Assembly (NCBI GenBank): GCA_022825235.1
Contig: JAJDYI010000038.1
Location: 1-43,925 of the forward strand
Source: Alphaproteobacteria bacterium
Lineage (GTDB): Bacteria; Pseudomonadota; Alphaproteobacteria; TMED109
Direction: 5' to 3'
Length of the DNA stretch: 43,925 nucleotides
Shown: positions 2,106 through 43,925 of the stretch, one piece after another
Layout of the letters: every line of letters starts with the position of its first letter
How positions within the stretch are numbered: the first letter of the stretch is position 1
Made by a program: the position numbers and the translations under genes
The notes under the pieces: model-generated
What the model saw: only the letters and a program-made list of their open reading frames with translations
The model's database searches: none
Told to the model about the DNA's origin: nothing

Positions 2106-3134
2106 CTAGCCTTTCTCGCCGACGGAGTCGTCGGGGTAAAACTGCCTGCAATAGCGTCGATATCTGCCGATGTCGCCGTCGGAACGAGACAGCCGGGGAT
2201 TCGGTCGGTGCTGCCGTCGTTGCCAGATGACGACATCCTGCTGCACATCCTGCATTTGCGCGGAAACCACCAGCCTGTTCATGACCCTGGTGCGGAACCT
2301 GGGTGGCAGGAAGCCGAGACCAACGATCAGCCGCTTGGGCCTTCGTATTTCCCGAATCTGACTGGCCAGCGACAGATCAACCAACGTGCCGTCGACGGGT
2401 GTGGCGAGGACCCACAAGCGGAGATCCATGCCAATGGAATGCTCCTGGACATCGACGAACGAGTAACCCAGCCCGTGGACGTGGGCTGCGGCCGAAATGC
2501 GATAGACGCTGTCGATGAAACCCGCGATGGGGCGGTGGCGGACGAAATCGAAACGGGCGAGAAGATAGGAACCGTCAACCGTCGTGGAACCGACAGGCTG
2601 CACGTTGTCGTAGCCGTGCACATGTCGCAGGTGGGCCAGGTCCACGGAGTTCTCCGCGATTTCCTGCACGTGGCCGGGAAACCGGACGGTCCGGATTTCC
2701 AAGTCGCACCATGCCTCTTCGACCGGCGGCGCTTCCGGCAAGTGCCATTGCGGCGGGCGGCCAGCGGCACTCCACCAGGCAAAGACGAGGCCTTGAATGA
2801 CCCGCGTATCATAGACGTTGAGCCGCACGGATCGCGGCGGCGGTGCATAGGGGGTTGCGACACAGTTGCCGGCGATATCGTACGTGAAGCCGTGAAAGGG
2901 GCAGACGAGACAGCCTTTGCGCACACGGCCGCCGACGGCCGGGCCCAGGGCGGAACCCATGTGCGGGCATACCGATTCGGCCACGCAGACGCCTCCGTCG
3001 TCGTCGCTCCACGCGACGATGTTTTGCCCAAGCCATTGCCGTTCAAGCAATTCCCCCTTGGCCAAGGCGTGCTGACTCGCTACGAAGTACCACCCCTCGG
3101 GAAATGGGAAGAGCGCAGCCGTCCCGTCACCCAC
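2106..3134 (-). CDS. Rieske [2Fe-2S] ring-hydroxylating oxygenase, KshA/Neverland-like
   Basis: A 342-residue protein. The N-terminal Rieske domain has C56-P-H58 and C78-P-F-H81-G, which hold the [2Fe-2S] cluster. The C-terminal catalytic domain has N162-x2-D165-x2-H168-x4-H173, the bridging Asp and the two His ligands of the mononuclear iron; an Asp in DVQQD near the C-terminus fits the third ligand. Length and layout match single-component Rieske oxygenases of the sterol/steroid type (KshA, DAF-36/Neverland), which take electrons from a separate reductase not seen here. The P450 fusion follows about 350 bp downstream on the same strand, so the two may act on the same hydrophobic substrate; the substrate is not determinable from sequence. 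A weak similarity to cholesterol desaturases is family-level knowledge, not proof. Confidence 0.88.
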   Translation of the reverse strand: MGDGTAALFPFPEGWYFVASQHALAKGELLERQWLGQNIVAWSDDDGGVCVAESVCPHMGSALGPAVGGRVRKGCLVCPFHGFTYDIAGNCVATPYAPPPRSVRLNVYDTRVIQGLVFAWWSAAGRPPQWHLPEAPPVEEAWCDLEIRTVRFPGHVQEIAENSVDLAHLRHVHGYDNVQPVGSTTVDGSYLLARFDFVRHRPIAGFIDSVYRISAAAHVHGLGYSFVDVQEHSIGMDLRLWVLATPVDGTLVDLSLASQIREIRRPKRLIVGLGFLPPRFRTRVMNRLVVSAQMQDVQQDVVIWQRRQHRPNPRLSRSDGDIGRYRRYCRQFYPDDSVGEKG

Positions 3135-3914
3135 GCTGTGCTCGCCGTTTCTGTCTTGACATGTTCCTGGCTAGGTTGACGCCATGATCGCCCACGACCG
3201 GTCAGAGCGAAGCAGGCGATCGCTCCCGTCCCTGACGCGCTGGCATTCTATCACCGCCGTGTCAATCCAAGTTGAGGGCGTGCTCCCCCGCCGGTGAACC
3301 CGACTTCCGGTCATCGGGTTGGCCCGTTGCTGTTCACACGACTCCAAATAGCACCGACACGGCATGACAACAACCAAACAATGACCAGAGAGGGGCAACT
3401 TCCAAGCGGCGGTCGGAGCCGGGTACGGGCCGCCAGTTCAGCAGCACATGATCCATCGGGGAACCCGCCGACGTCCAGTTCGTTGACAGTGCCAACGGTT
3501 GTGGCGGCACCCCGGGGAATCCTCTTTATATGTTCATCTCCGGAACGGAAACCCGCTGACATCCCGCTGCGTCTGGCGGAGGCACGGAACCCCGGCTCGC
3601 TTGCGAACAGACGGCCGCCGCACCGACAACCGGTCCCGGAACGCCCGGCATGCACCTGGGCCGCCACCCGACAGCCCCTCTCGACCGCACTGGAGCGCAC
3701 ACCCGCCGCTCGCGTCCCTCGCGCGCAGTCCAAGCCGATTCGAACCCCAAGTACGCGCCGTTCACGACACATGGTCGCCCTCAGCGTCTGAGCTACGCCC
3801 CTTGCGAACGTTTCTTGGCGATATGCTTTCTGTAAAGGCTGCACGCGGTCGTTCGTGGCAGGGCTGTGGGCAAGATGCTATACCTGAAACTCGCTCCCGG
3901 GCCAGCATCCGGTC
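3135..3914. other. Gene-poor divergent intergenic region
   Basis: About 780 bp between the minus-strand Rieske gene and the plus-strand transporter. Several open frames exist on both strands, but none has recognisable domains or a convincing ribosome site. It should hold the divergent promoters of the two neighbouring genes; no clear -35/-10 pair stood out. Confidence 0.5.
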
Positions 3915-6242
3915 ATGACACTAGATTCCTGCATTGCGCTCGTCGTCGGTCGCCGGTGGCTGACCATCGTGCTCTCCTTAGTTGCAATGCTGGCCCTTGC
4001 CGCGGGCGCCCAATACATCACGGTCGTTGACGTCGACGTTCGGAATCACTTCAGCAAAGACGATCCGCACATCGTCGCGCTCGACCAGTTGGAAGCCACC
4101 TACTCGCTCTCCGACGCCGCGTTGATCGTCGTGGCGCCGCAAAGCGGTACCGCCTTCACGCCGGAAGCACTCGTCGCCATCGAAGAGCTCACCGACCGGT
4201 TATGGCGGACGCCCTACGTCACGCGCGTTGACTCGATCACCAACTATTCGCACAGCGAAGGTCTCGAGGACGAGCTGATCGTCGCACCCCTGATCGACGA
4301 CGCCAATTCCCTCAGCGACAGCGATATCGAACGAATCCGGGAAATTGCACTCGGTACCGAAGAAGTCGCAGGGCGCTTCGTCTCCCGGGACGGTCGCGTC
4401 GCCGGGTTGGTCGTCAGCGTGGCGCTTCCCGAGGACCGACAGCTGGGAAGATTCGAGGTCACCGACTTCCTCCACGGCACCGCCGCCGAGGCGAGAGAGC
4501 AGTATCCGACCATCGACTACCACCTGACCGGCGAACTCATCCTCAACCGCGCCATGAAACAGGCGATCGACGATGACATGGGTGTCCTCGCGCCCATCAC
4601 GCTCGGCACCATGCTGCTCGTCGCCATCGTCCTGCTGCGCTCGCTGTGGGGAATGGTGGCGATTCTCGTGATGCTGATCGCGGTCATGCTGTCCGCGCTG
4701 GGCTTCACCGGCTGGGTCGGCCTGAAGCTGTACGGCGAGAGCGGCGCGGCGCTGTTCGTGTTGATGGCGGTCACCGTCGCGCATTCGGTGCACATCATCG
4801 AGGGGATGCGGGCGGGGCTGCGCCAGAGCATGGACCGTCCGCAGGCGGCGGTTCATTCCCTGCAGGCCAATGTGTGGCCAGTTCTCCTGACGTCGGTGAC
4901 GACCGCAATCGGCTTCCTCAGCCTCAATTTCGCGGAGATGCCGCCTTTCCGGGTGATGGGCAACATGGTGGCGTTCGGCGCGATGGCCGCCTTCGTCTTT
5001 TCGGTCACGCTTCTGCCCGCGTTTCTGACCGTCGTGCCAATGCGTGGCGGGTCCGCACCTCCGGGAAAGGCAGACCTCTTCGATCGCCTGGCGCGGTTCG
5101 TGATTTCCTACCGCACGATCCTGCTTTGGTCCGTCGCCGCCGTGATGGTCGTGCTCATCGCCGGAATCTCGCGGATTGAGCTGCAGGAGAACTGGCTGGA
5201 GCTGCTCGACGAGAGCTACGAGTTCCGGCGCTCCACGGATTTCGTGAGCGAGAATTTTACGGGCGTGGAAACGTATGAGTACTCGCTCAACTCCGGGCGG
5301 GAGGGCGGCATCACGGATGTTGAATACCTCCGGCAGGTGGATGCTTTTGCGGAGTGGAGTCGGTCACAGCCGGAGGTTGCCCACGTCTTCGCCATCTCCG
5401 ACATCATGAAGCGCCTGAACAAGAATCTGCATGGTGACGATCCCGACTTCTACGTGCTCCCGGACGACTCCGACCTCGCTGCGCAGTACCTGCTGCTCTA
5501 CGAGTTCTCCCTGCCGGTCGGTCGCGACCTGAACAACCTCATCGATGTGGAACGGTCGTCGACGCGCGTGTCGGTCGTGCTCAAGAGCCTCACCACCCGA
5601 GAAAAGGTCGACCTTGACAATCGCACGCAAGCCTGGTTCCGGCAGAACGCGCCTGATCTGGAAACCCAGGCTACCGGCGTTTCCGTGGTCGGGGCCCATT
5701 CAATCCAACGGAACATCGAGGGCATGCTGCGGGGCACGATCGCGGCAATGGCCATCGTGTCCCTGCTCCTGCTCTTTGTCTTCCGAAGCATACGTCTCGG
5801 CCTGATCAGCCTGGTCCCAAATTTCGCGCCAGCTGCCATGGCGATGGGCCTTTGGGGATATCTGGTGGGAGAAGTCGGCGTTGCAGCGTCAGTCGTCACC
5901 GCAATCGCGTTCGGCATCATCGTGGACGACACGATCCACTTCATGACCAAGTATGTCGGCGCCAGGAAACGCGGGCTGTTGCCCTCCGAGTCCGTCCAGT
6001 CCGCCTTTGGCGCGGTCGGCAAGGCACTGACGGCGACGACGGTCGTGTTCGCACTGGGATTCATGGTGTTCGCAGCGTCGGGACTGGTGACCAACCAAGC
6101 GCTCGGCCTGCTCGTGGGGATCACCGTCATCATTGCGCTGCTGGCGGACTTCCTGTTCCTCCCGCCGCTACTGATGGCGCTCGATGCGACGAAGGAAACG
6201 ACTGCACAGATCAGGGAACGCCTGAGCCGATCGACCGGATAG
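3915..6242 (+). CDS. MMPL/RND-family (HpnN/Patched-like) transporter
   Basis: A 775-residue inner-membrane protein of the RND superfamily, MMPL branch. A first membrane helix lies at residues about 14-34, followed by a periplasmic loop of roughly 200 residues. A block of closely spaced helices spans about 220-380 (sterol-sensing-domain-like, with a GAALFVLMAVTVAHSVH segment). A second periplasmic loop follows, then a second helix block at about 610-760 with GIIVDDTIHFMTKY, the acidic proton-relay-type segment of TM4/TM10 in this superfamily. Such proteins move hydrophobic molecules (hopanoids, lipids, sterols) out of the inner membrane by proton motive force. The next gene encodes a LolA-like periplasmic protein, a frequent partner of this subfamily. 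The cargo is not shown by the sequence. Confidence 0.88.
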   Translation: MTLDSCIALVVGRRWLTIVLSLVAMLALAAGAQYITVVDVDVRNHFSKDDPHIVALDQLEATYSLSDAALIVVAPQSGTAFTPEALVAIEELTDRLWRTPYVTRVDSITNYSHSEGLEDELIVAPLIDDANSLSDSDIERIREIALGTEEVAGRFVSRDGRVAGLVVSVALPEDRQLGRFEVTDFLHGTAAEAREQYPTIDYHLTGELILNRAMKQAIDDDMGVLAPITLGTMLLVAIVLLRSLWGMVAILVMLIAVMLSALGFTGWVGLKLYGESGAALFVLMAVTVAHSVHIIEGMRAGLRQSMDRPQAAVHSLQANVWPVLLTSVTTAIGFLSLNFAEMPPFRVMGNMVAFGAMAAFVFSVTLLPAFLTVVPMRGGSAPPGKADLFDRLARFVISYRTILLWSVAAVMVVLIAGISRIELQENWLELLDESYEFRRSTDFVSENFTGVETYEYSLNSGREGGITDVEYLRQVDAFAEWSRSQPEVAHVFAISDIMKRLNKNLHGDDPDFYVLPDDSDLAAQYLLLYEFSLPVGRDLNNLIDVERSSTRVSVVLKSLTTREKVDLDNRTQAWFRQNAPDLETQATGVSVVGAHSIQRNIEGMLRGTIAAMAIVSLLLLFVFRSIRLGLISLVPNFAPAAMAMGLWGYLVGEVGVAASVVTAIAFGIIVDDTIHFMTKYVGARKRGLLPSESVQSAFGAVGKALTATTVVFALGFMVFAASGLVTNQALGLLVGITVIIALLADFLFLPPLLMALDATKETTAQIRERLSRSTG

Positions 6243-6440
6243 GATCGGAACGCTGTCGCGCCAGTCGCAATCCGCCTGCAGATGCCGTGCCCGCAGGCGG
6301 GATCAGGCGCCTGCGGCAGCGGCCGGCTGGTGTTCCGGGCTACCGCCCCGCCAGCCCACCTCGGTATCCGAGCAGACCCACTTCCTGCTTGACACGTTCG
6401 GCTGTCCCGGGGCGGGCAGCCGGGCACATGGCAGAAATCG

Positions 6441-6449
6441 TGCTACCAT
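6441..6449 (+). promoter_or_regulatory. Possible extended -10 element upstream of the LolA-like gene
   Basis: TGCTACCAT fits an extended -10 (TGn plus a TATAAT-like hexamer) about 110 nt before the proposed start at 6557. There is no properly spaced -35, so this is weak. The gene may instead be transcribed from the transporter promoter. Confidence 0.2.
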
Positions 6450-6556
6450 GCTCATACAGGCGCAGGAGTCGATGTGATCCGCTCGCTGCTCGGGCTGTTC
6501 CGTCGAGTTCCTACGTTCCGTGGTGTGGCCACGGCGGTCGACAGGAGGCAACGGTC

Positions 6557-7372
6557 ATTCGCGCTTCTCTTCCCCACTCGGTCCTGGCGTCTGCTGGGAT
6601 CCTGGTTGCCATCTTCGCCTGGACGGTCGGGCCTCCGGTCGGGCAGGCGGAAACTGCCGAAGAAGCCGGTCTCCGGATCGCAACCGAAGCCCGTGACCGG
6701 CAAAAGGGTTTCGGCAACTTCACTTCCAACATGACCATGACCCTGCGCACAAAGCGGGGACAGGAAAGCAATCGCGAAATGCGCCTCAAGGTCATGGAGG
6801 TCGAAGACGACGGGGATCGCAGCGTGTTCGTGTTCGACCGCCCGCGCGACGTCAAGGGTACGGCATTTCTCGTGCACGCCCACAAGGACGGGCCGGACGA
6901 TCAGTGGCTCTATCTTCCCGCCCTGAAACGGGTCAAGCGCATCAGCTCCGCCAATCAATCCGGCTCATTCATGGGGAGCGAGTTCTCGTACGAGGATCTC
7001 GGTGCCGCGGAAGTCGAGAAATACACGCATCGCTACCTGCAGGACGAGCCTTGCGGCGAACTCCAGTGCTTTGTTCTCGAGCGAATCCCGGTGAGCGAGG
7101 ATTCAGGGTACTCCCGTCAGCTGGTTTGGCTTGACAAGGACGAGCTGCGCTCCATGCAGGTCCAGTACTTCGACCGCAGGAACGAGCATTTCAAGACGAT
7201 GGCCATCGAAGACTACGCGCAATACCTGGATCGTTTCTGGCGGAGCAGCAGGATCACGATGACCAACCATCTCACGGGCAAGAGCACCGTGCTGGTCTGG
7301 TCGGACTACGAGTTCGGGACTGACCTTGATGCTCGCGATTTCACCCGGACGGCGCTCCAGCGCGTGCGATAG
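6557..7372 (+). CDS. Outer-membrane lipoprotein-sorting (LolA-like) protein, probable ATT start
   Basis: A protein of about 271 residues with a signal peptide (hydrophobic stretch VLASAGILVAIFAWTVG, cleavage near VGQA-ETAEE) and a LolA-like fold seen in many MMPL-linked proteins. The pattern DQWLYLPALKRVKRIS followed by SGSFMGSEFSYEDL is characteristic of the LolA_like family (PF17131). It is expected to carry lipid or lipoprotein across the periplasm for the upstream MMPL pump. The start is unusual: no ATG, GTG or TTG lies in frame between the upstream region and the signal peptide. However, AGGAGG at 6543-6548 sits exactly 8 nt before ATT at 6557, which gives an ideal signal peptide beginning M-R-A-S. 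ATT starts are rare but known (infC). Longer in-frame readings reach into non-coding sequence. Confidence 0.8.
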   Translation: MRASLPHSVLASAGILVAIFAWTVGPPVGQAETAEEAGLRIATEARDRQKGFGNFTSNMTMTLRTKRGQESNREMRLKVMEVEDDGDRSVFVFDRPRDVKGTAFLVHAHKDGPDDQWLYLPALKRVKRISSANQSGSFMGSEFSYEDLGAAEVEKYTHRYLQDEPCGELQCFVLERIPVSEDSGYSRQLVWLDKDELRSMQVQYFDRRNEHFKTMAIEDYAQYLDRFWRSSRITMTNHLTGKSTVLVWSDYEFGTDLDARDFTRTALQRVR

Positions 7373-7757
7373 CGCCTGAGCGACGAACGGCATCGTCGCC
7401 GGCCCGCTTCGTCGAGTGGCTATGGGCCCGGGCGGACGTCGCGGTACTCGCTTCCGGGCGGCAAGACCCCAATAGACCTCAGCGGAGAAACCTCCACCCG
7501 TTCGCCGTTGGGGTTGAGTGCGAGCCCTGTACGGTGCTCGGCGGCGGCGTTGGTTGGCTTTGTCTCGCGCCGCGTCAGGCGGCGCGGACGACCTCAGCCC
7601 GTCTTCGTCCGTGTGCGCCTGCCGGGGCTCGTGGATGGGAGAGTTCGAGCACGCCGTCTTCGATCGGCGTACGTTTCACGATCTTCCTGTCTGCCAGGTA
7701 GTCCTGCGTGTTGCGCCAGGGAATCCGATCTCCCTGTTTCGGAAACAGGAGACGGCG
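7373..7757. other. Gap without a recognisable gene
   Basis: About 385 bp downstream of the LolA-like gene. Short frames on both strands have no recognisable motif. The last bases may be the eroded 5' part of the PIN pseudogene that follows. Confidence 0.4.
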
Positions 7758-7978: not shown

Positions 7979-8392
7979 TCAGCATTGCCTGCCAATCACG
8001 GGAACTCCGACGGCCCCTGCCGCCCCTGAGAGCCGCTGGTCGAGCGTGGCCAACGGCAGTCCGCGTCGGCTCGCAACTTCCAGGTAGGCGGCGTCGTAGA
8101 CGCTCAGAGCATGTTCACGCGCAAGCCCCAGAACCAGAGCCTCATCGTGGCCATGGTCAGTCGCGATGCCAAGGGCCGCGCAGTCTGCAAGCGTCTCCGC
8201 AACCTGCTGTGCGGTGATCCGTCCGCGACGTTCGTTCGTCAGCAACGCATTGCGCAGTTCATACCACCAAATCACGGGCGCCACGCCACCGTCGCTGACG
8301 ACACGGCGCATGGCCTCAGTTGCGACCGGCTCATCCTCATCGGCCAGAGACCAAGCCAGGAACACCGAGCAGTCCACCACGACGGACATCAA
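7979..8392 (-). CDS. VapC-family PIN-domain toxin
   Basis: A 137-residue PIN-domain protein with the acidic active-site set D7, E45, D100 and D118, as in VapC endoribonucleases, which cleave tRNA or rRNA when freed from their antitoxin. Its ATG overlaps the stop of the upstream Phd-type antitoxin by 4 bp (ATGA), the normal translational coupling of such pairs. The frame is complete and undamaged. Expression is probably controlled from the palindromic operator at 8651-8669. Confidence 0.85.
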   Translation of the reverse strand: MMSVVVDCSVFLAWSLADEDEPVATEAMRRVVSDGGVAPVIWWYELRNALLTNERRGRITAQQVAETLADCAALGIATDHGHDEALVLGLAREHALSVYDAAYLEVASRRGLPLATLDQRLSGAAGAVGVPVIGRQC

Positions 8393-8631
8393 TAGCGGTG
8401 TCCCTCATGGACCGATGTGACGAGATCGGCCAGTGGTACACCCCGCAGGTGTCGACGGCGTTCCTCGATCCGTGCTGCCGCCTGTTGCGCCAATGCCCGG
8501 CTTCCGGCCACCGGGACAAGGCGGGCGACCGGCTTGCCATGACGCGTGATGGTCAGGCTCTCACCGCGTGCCACCCGATCAAGCAAGCTCGGAAGGTGGG
8601 TCTTGGCCTCGTATGCGCCGATCTTCTCCAT
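8389..8631 (-). CDS. Phd/YefM-family antitoxin
   Basis: About 80 residues. The N-terminal part (MEKIGAYEAKTHLPSLLDRV) is the DNA-binding Phd/YefM fold, with the family hallmark ITRHGKPVARLVPV. The C-terminal tail should wrap the VapC partner. ATG at 8631 is preferred: AGGG lies 8 nt upstream, whereas the longer frame from GTG 8652 starts inside the operator. The gene is coupled to the downstream VapC by a 4-bp overlap. The pair is expected to autoregulate. Confidence 0.82.
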   Translation of the reverse strand: MEKIGAYEAKTHLPSLLDRVARGESLTITRHGKPVARLVPVAGSRALAQQAAARIEERRRHLRGVPLADLVTSVHEGHRY

Positions 8632-8650
8632 GCGTTTCGCCCTGTTTCCC

Positions 8651-8669
8651 ACTAGTCTGATCGACTAGT
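8651..8669. promoter_or_regulatory. Palindromic operator of the Phd-VapC pair
   Basis: A perfect inverted repeat ACTAGTC-tgatc-GACTAGT lies about 20 nt upstream of the antitoxin ATG. Just upstream on the minus strand is TATATT (plus-strand 8672-8677), a fair -10 box. Phd antitoxins bind such palindromes to repress their own operon. Confidence 0.65.
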
Positions 8670-8799: not shown

Positions 8800-10233
8800 C
8801 TAGCGTTTCCCGCCGAAGCCGGCGCTCAGATCGTCGCGTCGCAGCACGCCACCCATGCCTTCGTGGGCCGGACCAAAGAACGCGCCCGTCACCGTGCCGG
8901 CGTCGCCACCGGTCTGCACGAAAGTGTTGCCCTGCACCTCGATGACGTAGCGCAGATCGCCGTCGTTCCAGACGGTGCCGGTGCCAAGCGCGCCCGGCGC
9001 CGCATCGGCCGCCCACTGCTCCAGCCCTGTGAAGACAGCCGTACCGAGCATCGACGTCAAATCGACTGACAGATCGGCGGCGCCGGCGACGGCCTCCACC
9101 CCGGGCGTGAAGCCGACCAGCCGGCCGGACCAGTTGACGCTGCCCGAGAGTGCGGTGTTGTCCTTGATAGCGGTGCCGGGTGTCGGTCCGGTCGCCCAGG
9201 GCTGCGACAGGCCGTTCCTGAGCGCGGCGCCAAATGCGATCTCGCCACCTTCCGAGCCGAGCGCGCCGCGCACGTGCAGGGAGGTGTCGGCCCAGTTCTC
9301 CAGGTCCTCAGCAATGCCGTTTTGCGTGGTTTTCGGCTTGAGGTGGCCGTACGCTGCCAGCAGGGCTTCGCGATCGAGCGGGTGCAGGATGTGTTCCGTC
9401 AGTTCCTCGCTGCCTCCACCCACCATGATCGTCTCCGGGAAGCGGGCGGGGTCCACATGGTTGCGGCCCAGCAAGTGAATGAGCTCGTGCGCGATGACGC
9501 CCAGCCTCTTGAGCCCCGAGGTTCGGGTGTGGTCCACCAGGACCCGGCCGGCCACATATTCGAATCTGACGGGCACCGCCGGATCCCCGGTCGGCACCGC
9601 CGAAATGACCGGTTCCGCCAAGCCGATGTCCTCGCCGTTCGACGGCATGGCATTCACCGGCCAGTCCTCCTGCGGTGCGAACGTGACATGTATCCAGCCA
9701 TCTGCAGGTTGAAGCGCGCCGGCGGGTGCAGGGACCGGGCTGAACTGCAATTGCCAGTTCGGGGGCAGGGCCGCGTTGATCGCCTGGACCACGCGAACCG
9801 TCTCGTCGACCAGCGCCGGCGGGGTGCCATCAGCCACGTAGACAGTCGGTGGCTCGGGGCGGAAACGCAGGAGCGGGACCTCGAGAATCGTATCGACGGG
9901 CATGCCCTCCTCTTCCCTGGTCGGGGGCAGGGAGGAATCCGCTTCCAGGTAGGCGATCAGCTCGGCGGCTCCGACGCCATCCTGCACCGAGCCGTGAGAG
10001 ATCCTGACGTCGCCGTGACGGGCAGCCTGCGCCAACGCGCCGGCCGGTGGCCCGACGTCGGCCCCCACGTGCAGCGAGCTCTCCAGCGGCACGACCGGCG
10101 CCTGGCCCGCCTGGAGCGGCGTTTGGAGCGGCAGCTCGGGACTGCCCGAAACGGATGCATCTTCCATCCGTTCGGCGCAGGCGGCCAGAGAGACGACAAC
10201 ACTCAGGCCGAGGTACGTCAGCAAGTTCCTAAT
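8800..10233 (-). CDS. Surface lipoprotein: metzincin-like metalloprotease domain plus TbpB-like beta-barrel
   Basis: The N-terminus has a lipoprotein signal peptide (LGLSVVVSLAAC; lipid Cys 16 counted from TTG 10224). Counted the same way, residues 246-256 read HELIHLLGRNH, an exact HExxHxxGxxH metzincin zinc site, followed by ETIM as a possible Met-turn. The last ~165 residues are a TbpB-type eight-stranded barrel ending GAFFGPAHEGMGG and FGGKR, as in transferrin-binding-protein B-like lipoproteins exported by Slam. The protein is thus likely a surface-displayed protease; substrate unknown. The start may be TTG 10224 or, better for the signal peptide (M-R-N-L-L-T), ATT 10233 with AAAGG 9 nt upstream. 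A Slam gene is present at 40847-42241 but not adjacent. Confidence 0.8.
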   Translation of the reverse strand: MRNLLTYLGLSVVVSLAACAERMEDASVSGSPELPLQTPLQAGQAPVVPLESSLHVGADVGPPAGALAQAARHGDVRISHGSVQDGVGAAELIAYLEADSSLPPTREEEGMPVDTILEVPLLRFRPEPPTVYVADGTPPALVDETVRVVQAINAALPPNWQLQFSPVPAPAGALQPADGWIHVTFAPQEDWPVNAMPSNGEDIGLAEPVISAVPTGDPAVPVRFEYVAGRVLVDHTRTSGLKRLGVIAHELIHLLGRNHVDPARFPETIMVGGGSEELTEHILHPLDREALLAAYGHLKPKTTQNGIAEDLENWADTSLHVRGALGSEGGEIAFGAALRNGLSQPWATGPTPGTAIKDNTALSGSVNWSGRLVGFTPGVEAVAGAADLSVDLTSMLGTAVFTGLEQWAADAAPGALGTGTVWNDGDLRYVIEVQGNTFVQTGGDAGTVTGAFFGPAHEGMGGVLRRDDLSAGFGGKR

Positions 10234-13309: not shown

Positions 13310-13576
13310 GGATCACACCCCTGCCCCACCGCGCGTAGCTCTCTGCAGCCCGTTTGGCCACCGTCAGCGACACGCTCACGACTTCCAGGGCCAGACCATC
13401 GATCAACCCAGCCGTTTCGCTGCCACGACCCCGCCGTTCCGCAACCACCAGTGCCTCGGCAACCGTCACCACCGACAGGACGAGCTGGCTTCCGCAGCCA
13501 ATGCTTCAGCACAGATGGCAGTCTCCGGCTCATTCAGTGGGACGGCCATCAAGGCTGACATTTCGGTTGCGATCAC
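13310..13576 (-). pseudogene. Frameshifted VapC-type PIN toxin
   Basis: The GTG at 13576 overlaps the antitoxin stop (GTGA), as in a normal phd-vapC pair. The first frame reads V-I-A-T-E-M-SALMAVPLNEPE, which matches a VapC N-terminus except that I-D-T-S has become T-E-M-S, losing the first catalytic Asp. A frameshift near 13490 moves the reading to VTVAEALVVAERRGRGSETA and ESYARWGRG, the PIN middle region. After that the homology breaks up. The toxin is dead while its antitoxin is intact. Confidence 0.7.
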
Positions 13577-13830
13577 CTCGGCAGGCCGTCATCGTCGTAA
13601 AGGAAGTCCTGGCTGCGAGCCGCATCGGCACCTTCGGTACGTTTCTCCTCGGCCGCAGCCTGCATAGCCGCAATTGCCGCGCGCCGAACCTTCGCGTGGG
13701 GAGGCGACTGTACCGGAACCAGCCTGACCGCCGGCTTGCCATGGCGGGTAAGCACCACCTTGTCGCCCGCCTCGGCACGGCGGACCAAGGCAGTCAGTCG
13801 TGCTTTCGCTTCGCTAACCGAGACCCGCAC
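13573..13830 (-). CDS. Phd-family antitoxin with a dead partner
   Basis: About 85 residues beginning M-R-V-S-V-S-EAKARLTALV, with the Phd/YefM hallmark LTRHGKPAVRLVPV. GTG at 13830 is preferred because GGGGG lies about 6 nt upstream; a longer frame from ATG 13866 adds 12 residues unlike the family. The downstream VapC is frameshifted, so this is an orphan antitoxin. It could still repress its own promoter or neutralise a related toxin, as several other VapC proteins are encoded nearby. Confidence 0.78.
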   Translation of the reverse strand: MRVSVSEAKARLTALVRRAEAGDKVVLTRHGKPAVRLVPVQSPPHAKVRRAAIAAMQAAAEEKRTEGADAARSQDFLYDDDGLPR

Positions 13831-13846
13831 TGGTTTGCCCCCGCAA

Positions 13847-14790
13847 GTACCCGAGGAATCGATCATACGGACTAAGGATCAGGGCACCCATGGGCACTAC
13901 TGGTACTCCTGCCAGCGAATCGGGAACCGCGTTGTCGACCGCTACATCGGCCGGGACACACCTGAACTCCGCACGCGTATCGAGGCCGCCGAAACACAGC
14001 GCGAACATCAAAAGGCACTCGCTAAGCGATGTGCCAGCTTGGTCGCGCAACTACGTGCTGCAGCCCTCCCGGCCCTGGATCGCCAAACCGGAAAGGTCCT
14101 GCACGCCATGGCACGAGTCGGCACGTTTCGTCTGGGCGGCACGCTAGTTGGAACCCACGCATTTCGCCTCTGCAGCGCAGAGCTTGGCGTGAGCCTGGCC
14201 GAAGCACTGGCCGTCACTGAGGATGTCGACGTCCCCGCTCTTGAAGGACTCAAACTCGTCATTCATGACCAGGTCAATCCATCGCTCGCGGATACCTTCA
14301 GGGATCTCAAGCTCTCACCGGCTCCGAGCCTCGACCGCAGGAACAGACCGACGTGGTGGGCGATGGAGGGGGGCGGTACCATGGTGGAATTTCTCGCGCC
14401 AAAAAAGCGTGAAACCGACGACATCCTCATGCTGGAACCCCTTGGGGTCTATGCACAGGCACTCTCCTTCCTGAATTTTCTGATTGCCGAACCCATCTCC
14501 GCGGTCAGCCTCTATCGAAACGGCGTTCTCGTTCAAATTCCACGACCGGAACGTTATGCCGTCCACAAGCTGATCGTCGCCCAACACCGGCCCATCGGCT
14601 CAGAAGCGAAGGCCAAAAAGACGTTGCTCAGGCAGAACTGCTGGTCAAGGCCCTAGCCGAAGATCGCCCGTTCGCGCTTGACGAAGCCTTCCAACTCGCC
14701 ATGGCCGCAGGCCCCAAACGGCGGGATTCGATCAAGAAATCGCTCAAACAAAAGCCGCTTATGGCGAAACTGATTCAGCACCCGCCGTAA
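13847..14790 (+). pseudogene. GSU2403-type nucleotidyltransferase (NTP_transf_8), 5'-truncated and frameshifted
   Basis: The frame opens without a good start and reads GTHGHYWYSCQRIGNRVVDR, then YIGRDTPELRTRIEAAE, matching the N-terminal part of the NTP_transf_8 family after its first ~40 residues. A nucleotidyltransferase core follows with VTEDVDVPALEGL (acidic D-x-D-type site) and MVEFLAPKKRE. The frame ends early at 14656. Dropping one base position at the AAAAA run near 14622 restores KDVAQAELLVKALAEDRPFA and the normal C-terminus, ending at TAA 14788-14790. The 5' end is cut where the antitoxin gene begins on the other strand. It is probably nonfunctional unless the A-run is a sequencing error or a slippage site. 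Confidence 0.72.
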
Positions 14791-40846: not shown

Positions 40847-42241
40847 TCAGAATACCCGCACGAAGCTGAGTTCGCCGCCGGTACGCCGGTAGTCGTAGAG
40901 CTGCGCGTTGGTGTCGCGTACTTCGTGCACCAGCGACAGGCGCGGGCTGAAGCCCCTCCACGCGAAGGCCCGGTTGAAGACAGAGAGGCGGAGAGAACGG
41001 GTCCGGTCCTCGCGCGGCTCCCCGGCGGTATGCGGGAACCAGTTCCCCTCGTAGTCCGTCCAGCGCATCTCGGCGCTGCCACCTACGGTGAACCCCCGGG
41101 GCAGCGCCATCGACAATCCCAGCCGCAGCCACTTCCGTTCGTGGCGCCACCGCTCCAGCTCCGTGCGCTCCTTTCCCCAGCCGAGCGCCGCATCGGCCCG
41201 GACCGTCGCACTCACAATCCAGATGCCACCCAGCATGACGTCCGCAACCGGGCCGTCGAGGAAGGTTTGCGTGCGGTAGCTTCGCTCGTGAAACGACGCC
41301 CGGGCGTTCGTCGTGACCCGGCGGCTCACTCTGCGTGCGCCCTCGAGCCGGGCGCCGAGTGCATCGTACAGCTGGTCGCCGGCCATCCAGCGCCGTTGCA
41401 CGCTGGCCAGCACGCTCGCCTCGGCATTCGCACCGACAAGCCAGCGCGGCCCACCGTGCACTGAAACGAACGTCTGGTCGAAGCGACTCCCCGCGTAATC
41501 GCGCCGGGAGATGTCTGCGCCAGTCCGAAGGCGGCGGCGCTCACCCAACGGGTACTGGTATTCGCCACTCAGCCACGCGGAGAGACCAATTCCCGACGTC
41601 GACAGTTCCTGCGCATCTCGCTCGAATGGCAGGCCAGCGATATAGATGATGCGCTCTTCCGACGTGGCGCCGATGTTGGTGTCGGGCGCCAGGGAGAAAC
41701 CCCCGCGCAGGGTCCAGCGCCGCCGGGCCTGGATCTGCGCGAGGAACCGCCGGACGTTGGCCACGACCGGCGCAGGCGGATTCCCGGCGAGCACGCGCTC
41801 GAATTGCTCGCGCGACAGGTCGTCTTCCCCCTTCAGGAAGAACGCCCGGGCGAGTTCCAGGCGCACGCGCACGAGTTCCGGATGGTTGATCAGCATGAAG
41901 CGGAACGCTGCGATCGCCTCTTCCAGCAGGGCCTCACGCCCGGCTTCTCCCACGCCCGGGTGTTGTGAGAGCTCAGTTGCCGCAAGGCCGATAAGAAATA
42001 CGACGCCCGCATCCATTTCCTGGCCCTGCGCCAGGGGCCGCAGCAAGTCGAGTGCCTCGGCAAACCGGCCTTCCTGCAGCAGCGCCTGGGCTTCCTCGAC
42101 AGCGGCGACAGGATCCGAAGTCCCCTGCGAGGGTACCGCCACGGAGGCGTCGCCCCCTTCCTCTCCAAAGGCACCGAGCGGGGCCGTCAGCACGATGGCG
42201 ACAGCGGCGAACATTACGCATCGCACGGAGTTCATGACCAT
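40847..42241 (-). CDS. Slam: surface lipoprotein assembly modifier (TPR plus DUF560 barrel)
   Basis: 464 residues. A signal peptide (CVMFAAVAIVLTAPLGAFG) is followed by a TPR region (about 45-170, with ALLQEGRFAEALDLLRPLAQ). A C-terminal DUF560 outer-membrane barrel begins at GGFSLAPDTNIGATSEE and ends FVRVF with the terminal Phe of barrel proteins. Inner motifs WTDYEGNWFPHTAGE and VSVHGGPRWL are typical of Slam. Slam flips lipoproteins such as TbpB to the cell surface. Three TbpB-like lipoproteins in this window (8800, 32383, 43033) are candidate cargos; the nearest lies 0.8 kb upstream on the same strand and is broken. ATG 42241 or ATG 42235 could be the start; no clear ribosome site was seen. 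Confidence 0.9.
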   Translation of the reverse strand: MVMNSVRCVMFAAVAIVLTAPLGAFGEEGGDASVAVPSQGTSDPVAAVEEAQALLQEGRFAEALDLLRPLAQGQEMDAGVVFLIGLAATELSQHPGVGEAGREALLEEAIAAFRFMLINHPELVRVRLELARAFFLKGEDDLSREQFERVLAGNPPAPVVANVRRFLAQIQARRRWTLRGGFSLAPDTNIGATSEERIIYIAGLPFERDAQELSTSGIGLSAWLSGEYQYPLGERRRLRTGADISRRDYAGSRFDQTFVSVHGGPRWLVGANAEASVLASVQRRWMAGDQLYDALGARLEGARRVSRRVTTNARASFHERSYRTQTFLDGPVADVMLGGIWIVSATVRADAALGWGKERTELERWRHERKWLRLGLSMALPRGFTVGGSAEMRWTDYEGNWFPHTAGEPREDRTRSLRLSVFNRAFAWRGFSPRLSLVHEVRDTNAQLYDYRRTGGELSFVRVF

Positions 42242-43032: not shown

Positions 43033-43786
43033 CTAGTCGCGCCTCGCACCAAATGCGCCCGAAACCTCGGCACGAACGCCAGCGGCTGCATGGGCGTCCA
43101 GCAAGACTTCCCTGCGACCGAACAGGCCGCCGGCTTCCTCGTGGTTCGGGCCGTAAAACCGCCCGGAAATCCCCTGGCTGGCCGGGTGCCGGCTGATCTC
43201 CGCGGCGTCGGCGCTTACAGGGCTGATTCCGAACGCGCCGGACCGCAACGGCAAATCACGCCAGCGCATGTCTTCGATCCCCGCGCCGGTCGCTTCGTGC
43301 CTGATATTGGTGAACGCGACATCGACCACCAGATCCGCACCCCCCGGCCGGCTCGAGACCGTTACCATCGCGTCACCATGCACAAAGGCGTCCGGCATGG
43401 ACTGGTCGGGGTTGGTCATCAAGAGACCCCGCATCACTCCGGACCACGTCACGGCGCGCTCGCCCGAAAGGTCCGGATCGGTACCCGCGGTGTTTCCTGC
43501 GGAATAGGCCCGGTAGTAGCGATGGTCGGGGGCGGTGCCTCCCGGCGACACCCCTAGACGCGGGGTCTCGATCAGGAAGAAACTGTGGTCCATCCAGCCC
43601 GCGAGGGCTCGGTACGACGGGCGGCCCGTTTCCTGGGCGATCCCCGTCTTTTCGGCCAGCGATACGCCGTTCCGGCGTTCCAGAAAGACGAAGTCTGCGA
43701 CGTCTAGATCCTTTACGGATCCGTAGTGAATGGGGCCGAGCCCGCCCTCGCAGCCAATGATCAGGGCCAGGCAGATTGCGGACTCA
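43033..43786 (-). pseudogene. TbpB-like lipoprotein interrupted by an IS5-type element
   Basis: The open frame begins inside the signal peptide at SAICLALIIGC (lipobox L-I-I-G-C, Cys codon 43750-43752) and has no start codon before a stop within the insertion sequence. The mature part runs LGPIHYGSVKDLDVADFVFL to the barrel end GISGRFYGPNHEEAGG and VSGAFGARRD, the TbpB-like C-terminal signature. The first few codons and the promoter are displaced by the IS beginning at 43787. It is a probable Slam cargo, now silenced unless the IS supplies a promoter. Confidence 0.75.
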
Positions 43787-43925
43787 GAGCCTGTGCGGAA
43801 ACTATTGAGCGGCCCCGATCCTGGCTCCTACGATGTGGTTAGCAGCTACATCGGGAGGATGCCGTGGCTTGGACCAAGACCGCTCGTGCGGAGTATAGGC
43901 GTCGGGGGAAGCGCTTCGAGAGCGA
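43787..43925 (+). mobile_element. Left end of an IS5-family insertion sequence
   Basis: The element seems to start at GAGCCTGTGCGG (43787), a typical terminal sequence for IS5-family (IS427/IS1031-like) elements, and leads into a transposase gene at 43864. The right end is outside the window. The lipoprotein frame breaks exactly here, supporting the boundary. Confidence 0.65.
43864..43925 (+). CDS. IS5-family transposase, N-terminus only
   Basis: From GTG 43864 the frame reads V-A-W-T-K-T-ARAEYRRRGKRFES, matching the start of IS5-family transposases (MAWTxxTRxxYxRxGLRYASD). GGAGG (43854-43858) lies 5 nt upstream, which decides this start over ATG 43859 in another frame. It continues past the window. 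Confidence 0.75.
   Translation, partial: MAWTKTARAEYRRRGKRFES

Follow-up and report, generated by a model that had tools for sequence, protein, structure and literature searches.

Whether the Slam (type XI) secretion route carries enzymes to the bacterial surface as well as binding proteins is the question raised by the locus described here. To our knowledge, Slam cargo has so far consisted of ligand binders, with metals, heme, factor H, and glycans as the ligands. The window (the whole 43,925-nucleotide stretch of DNA, from an uncultured alphaproteobacterium, that was analyzed) contains an open reading frame at 8800-10233 on the reverse strand, and translation of this frame gives a 477-amino acid lipoprotein, referred to below as P0001. 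An earlier note on this DNA had described a lipobox, an HExxHxxGxxH motif, a later Met, and a C-terminal barrel in the same frame, and all four are present in the following arrangement.

10177-10233, reverse strand: type II signal peptide IRNLLTYLGLSVVVSLAAC with lipobox (from the translation and family lipoboxes)
9853-10176, reverse strand: N-terminal region of ~108 amino acids, from the lipidated Cys to the protease domain (from the alignment and dN/dS)
9349-9852, reverse strand: matrixin-like metzincin catalytic domain, residues 128-295, as assigned by profile comparisons
9457-9489, reverse strand: zinc-binding/catalytic motif HELIHLLGRNH (HExxHxxGxxH; from the sequence and family alignment)
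9424-9426, reverse strand: presumed Met-turn Met270, 11 residues past the third His (from the sequence and family column)
8803-9294, reverse strand: C-terminal TbpB-type beta-barrel, residues 314-477, ending GGVLRRDDLSAGFGGKR, as assigned by hhalign and single-sequence Pfam/NCBIfam comparisons

The frame at 8800-10233 was accepted as a real gene because orthologues are full length or close to it and both the protease domain and the barrel of P0001 have a dN/dS of 0.21-0.37, a range indicative of purifying selection. Orthologues and relatives were 61-87% identical over the full or nearly the full length, and the N-terminal region was the least constrained part of the protein (dN/dS 0.38-0.62). 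The lipobox SLAAC (LAAC) marks a type II signal with the lipidated Cys at codon 19 (10179-10177), and nearly all members of the family have a lipobox. Position 10233, where the earlier note had ended the gene, is an ATT codon, and the first usual start codon is a TTG at 10224. ATT at codon 1 is shared with two orthologues (three species in all, including that of the window), three more distant orthologues have ATG at this position, and codon 4 is ATG in one orthologue and TTG in the window. Based upon this comparison, translation starts at either ATT 10233 or TTG 10224; a purine-rich AAAGG is located nine bases ahead of the ATT.

The protease domain was compared to known families both as a single sequence and as a family profile. 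Pfam Peptidase_M10 (cut-off 24 bits) gave no match to P0001, and no scanned family member reached the cut-off, with weak matches in 5 of 14 relatives (best E 0.0023) and 18.1 bits for the best scanned member. Searched alone against the PDB using phmmer, the P0001 sequence gave no matches. When a profile of 12 family protease domains was searched against the PDB, metzincins were found throughout the at least 60 matches listed, led by ADAMTS-5 (5e-4) and MMP-11 (9e-4, aligned positions 50-166) and including MMP-14, snapalysin, fragilysin, astacin, and karilysin. Using hhalign, the family protease profile aligned end to end with 16 matrixin domains from other Alphaproteobacteria (picked by Pfam M10) at E 2.3e-10, and the alignment took in the strands, the Met-turn, and the terminal LxxxDxxALxxxY helix. 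After the eleven zinc-motif columns were masked, the alignment was still collinear and scored 24.6, above every one of 150 column-shuffled controls, the highest of which scored 17.0. Within the zinc motif, H, E, H, and G did not vary among 14 diverse family members; family-wide, the zinc ligands and the Glu were invariant or nearly so, with the Glu kept in every member that retains the motif. The Met-turn column held Met in 16 of 23 family members, and both this Met and its distance to the third His varied among paralogues.

Given the profile matches, the masked control, and the invariant H/E/H/G, the domain is, on profile evidence, a matrixin-like metzincin, and the metzincin fold that the earlier note had proposed for the HExxH region agrees with the PDB, matrixin, and masked comparisons alike. 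Structure prediction, which the same note had suggested, did not confirm the fold: AlphaFold2 models reached a pLDDT of 33 for mature P0001 (from a shallow alignment of 5 sequences) and 40 for the protease domain alone, and both were unusable. Foldseek/VIA-align searches with the pLDDT-40 protease model returned low-confidence matches to acetyltransferases and further unrelated folds and no metzincins, a result that is uninformative at such model quality. The family shares HExxHxxGxxH, the Met-turn, the LxxxDxxALxxxY helix, and the end-to-end profile alignment with matrixins (MEROPS M10A) and other metzincins, but differs from matrixins in scoring under the Pfam M10 cut-off, in being lipidated and fused to a TbpB-type barrel, and in having HExxHxxGxxxH in some paralogues. 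This last variant, with an extra residue before the third His, defines a subfamily (L019, L020, L032, L127, L215, and L012) that was found across several organism families.

The C-terminal domain of P0001 scored 16.2 bits as a single sequence against Pfam TbpB_B_D (under the cut-off of 26) and 21.2 bits (E 2.8e-4) against NCBIfam NF041636 slam_lipo (under the cut-off of 80). A ten-member family barrel profile matched ten TbpB_B_D barrels from other Alphaproteobacteria, all above the Pfam cut-off, with an hhalign E of 4.3e-7 and a probability of 92.7 over the last 111 columns; in a control, the protease profile gave nothing against the same ten-barrel profile. The best PDB matches to the family barrel profile were three entries for NHBA (E 0.02-0.04), and NHBA (GNA2132) of Neisseria is thus the nearest PDB barrel, although at E 0.022 the match is weak. 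Based on these profiles, the C-terminus of P0001, whose last residues are GFGGKR, is a TbpB-type barrel, presumably with eight strands, and the likeness to TbpB asserted beforehand holds.

P0001 belongs to a large family, with about 25 distinct relatives that have an intact HExxH and a barrel and are distributed over four alphaproteobacterial families with up to five per genome. Protease and barrel relatives were found in five of the six other genomes of the genus, plus one genome each in f66, f80, and f81. In a search of 398 genomes of the phylum, a strong score was obtained only in the genome of the window, with two weak partial matches elsewhere. The architecture is therefore expanded in number of paralogues yet narrow in distribution.

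At least four further members accompany P0001 in its own genome. One is an 1130-residue lipoprotein (C29:71.5-74.9 kb; L042:2514-5906, G000:C29) in which protease-type domains and TbpB-type barrels each occur twice, in the order second-type metzincin (HEIGHVLGAWYG with SSIMAYC), barrel, degenerate first-type copy, and second barrel. An 1155-residue lipoprotein from another genome (L045:2753-6220, G025:C108) follows the same two-protease, two-barrel plan, and in both proteins HExxH has been lost from the second of the protease domains. The remaining members in the genome are a 606-residue protein that is one of four clustered barrel proteins (C29:43-50 kb), one at C28:3053, and a paralogue at C7:14187 (L046:5558-6892) in which a TAG interrupts the frame between protease and barrel. 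Among nineteen additional large barrel proteins from the class, Pfam detected FecR domains and no enzymatic ones. Single proteins that join a FecR domain to a TbpB- or fHbp-type barrel (L108, L109, L111, L112, and L113) occur in several alphaproteobacterial families.

The earlier note had further proposed that the barrel acts as a Slam export handle. A candidate transporter and a second barrel frame are located near the end of the window.

40847-42241, reverse strand: Slam with a TPR domain and a SlipAM/DUF560 barrel, candidate transporter (PF04575 E 1.1e-25, 288 of 288 positions)
43033-43827, reverse strand: TbpB-type barrel reading frame adjoining Slam (PF01298 25 bits; family barrel profile E 4e-26)

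The adjoining barrel frame has no ATG, GTG, or TTG until 43593; a broken 5' end, an unusual start, or a misassembly close to the end of the contig may account for this. This Slam is 31 kb from the P0001 gene and is one of two in the genome, the second being on C63. In the class sample, Slam was detected in 43 of 385 genomes and in all six carriers of a full-length protease-barrel protein (Fisher P 1.4e-6, uncorrected for shared ancestry); the six carriers span four families, with three in one genus. In the f66 genus, two genomes that lack Slam retained only short barrel remnants. A protease-barrel gene and a Slam gene were found on one contig in the window, in G027 (~10 kb apart), and in G026 (~35 kb apart). 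In G022 an orthologue was present, and Slam was not found in its 92%-complete assembly. G026 had seven Slam matches, with a single 30-kb contig accounting for three, and no PF04575 Slam match was found in G370, which encodes at least ten TbpB-type barrel matches, mostly in proteins of 1700-3200 residues (e.g., L095-L099).

The closest association was observed at L189 (G312:C99), where four genes are arranged in a row on the forward strand: a barrel lipoprotein (1-1305), Slam (1363-2811), a second barrel lipoprotein (2872-4449), and a metzincin-two-barrel protein (4610-7408), separated by gaps of 57, 60, and 160 bases. This last gene encodes a 932-residue lipoprotein whose barrel scored 43.1 bits against Pfam, above the cut-off as a single sequence, and whose protease domain matched matrixin at E 0.018. 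Because it has the second type of metzincin domain, this protein is an architectural relative of P0001 and not an orthologue, and L189 was the only locus at which a metzincin-barrel gene adjoined Slam.

The overall plan of P0001 is one already described for Slam cargo, namely a lipobox followed by a C-terminal barrel (PMC12282271, PMC5449769). The targeting signal has been placed, as a prediction, in the C-terminal barrel or the C-terminus (PMC5449769, PMC9090332, PMC12282271). P0001 resembles the Slam-dependent (type XI/T11SS) proteins TbpB, LbpB, HpuA, and fHbp in having a lipobox, a variable N-terminal effector, a C-terminal TbpB-type barrel, and a Slam in the genome; unlike theirs, which is a binding handle, its effector is a predicted metzincin protease domain. 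A 2025 survey of T11SS cargo listed about ten architectures, none described as an enzyme (PMC12282271), and in the open-access literature no enzyme cargo was found in the 2017, 2021, and 2025 Slam/T11SS surveys, the 2022 reconstitution paper, or a 2020 review. Because these surveys describe no cargo enzyme and the plan is otherwise the same, P0001 appears to combine a known delivery plan with a new payload. The claim that a protease would be a new use of the pathway agrees with these papers, but the unit to which it applies is a family of many paralogues and not one protein. Proteases that are surface lipoproteins are already known from Gram-negative bacteria by other routes. NalP travels by the autotransporter (type V) route, is a serine protease, and is without a Slam-type barrel. 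This lipidated autotransporter protease of Neisseria is mentioned in PMC5449769.

We consider it fairly likely, from domain content and genomic association, that P0001 is a surface-displayed metalloprotease lipoprotein and cargo of the Slam (type XI) pathway. Sec would export it, lipidation would follow at Cys19, as the lipobox suggests, and the Lol system would then carry it to the outer membrane. There, Slam would recognize the TbpB-type barrel and move the polypeptide across the outer membrane, a step suggested by the domain match, the co-occurrence, and the Slam-linked relative. Once outside, the barrel would fold and the N-terminal metzincin would bind zinc and cleave nearby peptides or proteins, as expected from the conserved HExxHxxGxxH. 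The most likely substrates are proteins of the host or of the extracellular surroundings, or other proteins on the cell surface.

The main doubt concerns Slam dependence, since NHBA and fHbp were displayed on E. coli without Slam1 and the display of NHBA was unaffected by Slam1 (PMC5500766). NHBA is nevertheless listed as Slam-dependent in a review (PMC7857515), and it differs from P0001 in having no protease domain as well as in this disputed dependence. P0001 could accordingly be a surface protease that reaches the outer leaflet by another or an intrinsic route, with the barrel serving as a structural or binding module. The E. coli results fit such a route, as do the position of NHBA as the nearest solved barrel and the G022 genome with its protease-barrel protein and no detected Slam. 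The co-occurrence of barrel, protease-barrel, and Slam across families and the metzincin-barrel protein within the L189 Slam row argue against it, and we regard this explanation as unlikely. The proposed export handle is thus favored by the genomic evidence (the window Slam, its presence in all six carriers, and the L189 row) and weakened by the Slam1-independent display of NHBA.

A different orientation would make P0001 an outer-membrane lipoprotein that faces the periplasm and acts on envelope peptides or proteins, perhaps together with two M16 peptidases whose genes are located 177 bases upstream on the same strand. The periplasm is a frequent orientation of lipobox proteins. However, the M16 pair is ~4 kb away in a close relative (L208), was not found in the L209 stretch examined or beside more distant orthologues, and the C-terminal TbpB-type barrel is one common to predicted Slam cargo, which leaves this orientation distinctly unlikely. 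The metzincin domain may alternatively be a metal- or ligand-binding module without protease activity, in line with ligand-binding cargo. Loss of HExxH in the second-half domain of the 1130-residue paralogue, and several paralogues with an extra residue before the third His or without the Met, are consistent with such a module; P0001 and its close orthologues, by contrast, keep a canonical and complete motif, the catalytic Glu is invariant wherever the motif is kept, and the protease domain is constrained (dN/dS 0.21-0.37), and an inactive domain was judged unlikely. Coincidental occurrence of the motif, or wrong domain assignments, in a spurious frame, which the single-sequence Pfam scores of both domains (under the cut-offs) and the many long false frames of high-GC DNA might suggest, is already refuted by the orthologues, the codon-level purifying selection, and the profile-profile matches. 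HExxHxx[GP] was also present in 26 of 96 distinct barrel frames versus 0.17 expected in shuffled sequences, in a set that is biased because many of its loci were retrieved using P0001.

An operon of the P0001 gene with the M16 pair was considered and rejected, as the arrangement is not conserved in relatives, and the neighbors of the P0001 gene are not conserved beyond three close species. An MMPL-type transporter and a LolA-like protein (PF17131) are encoded at 3915-7372 on the forward strand, a pair that has stayed adjacent to the protease in two close relatives. A PIN toxin (VapC-like) and Phd/YefM antitoxin pair (7979-8652, reverse strand) immediately follows the P0001 gene on its downstream side, and another antitoxin-like frame is located at 13573-13866. 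A literature search on the habitat of the host organism gave nothing specific.

Returning to P0001 as Slam cargo, the Slam route probably displays enzymes besides binding proteins, because the family joins a predicted zinc-protease domain to a Slam-type barrel. A broader proposal, which we hold tentatively and at slightly less than even confidence, is that Slam is a general enzyme display system in some Alphaproteobacteria, in which expanded barrel-fused metzincins (of at least two domain types) and multiple Slams would provide a proteolytic coat on the cell surface. A barrel-fused enzyme would separate address label (the barrel) from payload in nature, would make the handle hypothesis directly testable, and would give a natural precedent for enzyme display by Slam. 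It also suggests a new means by which uncultured Alphaproteobacteria may act on extracellular proteins.
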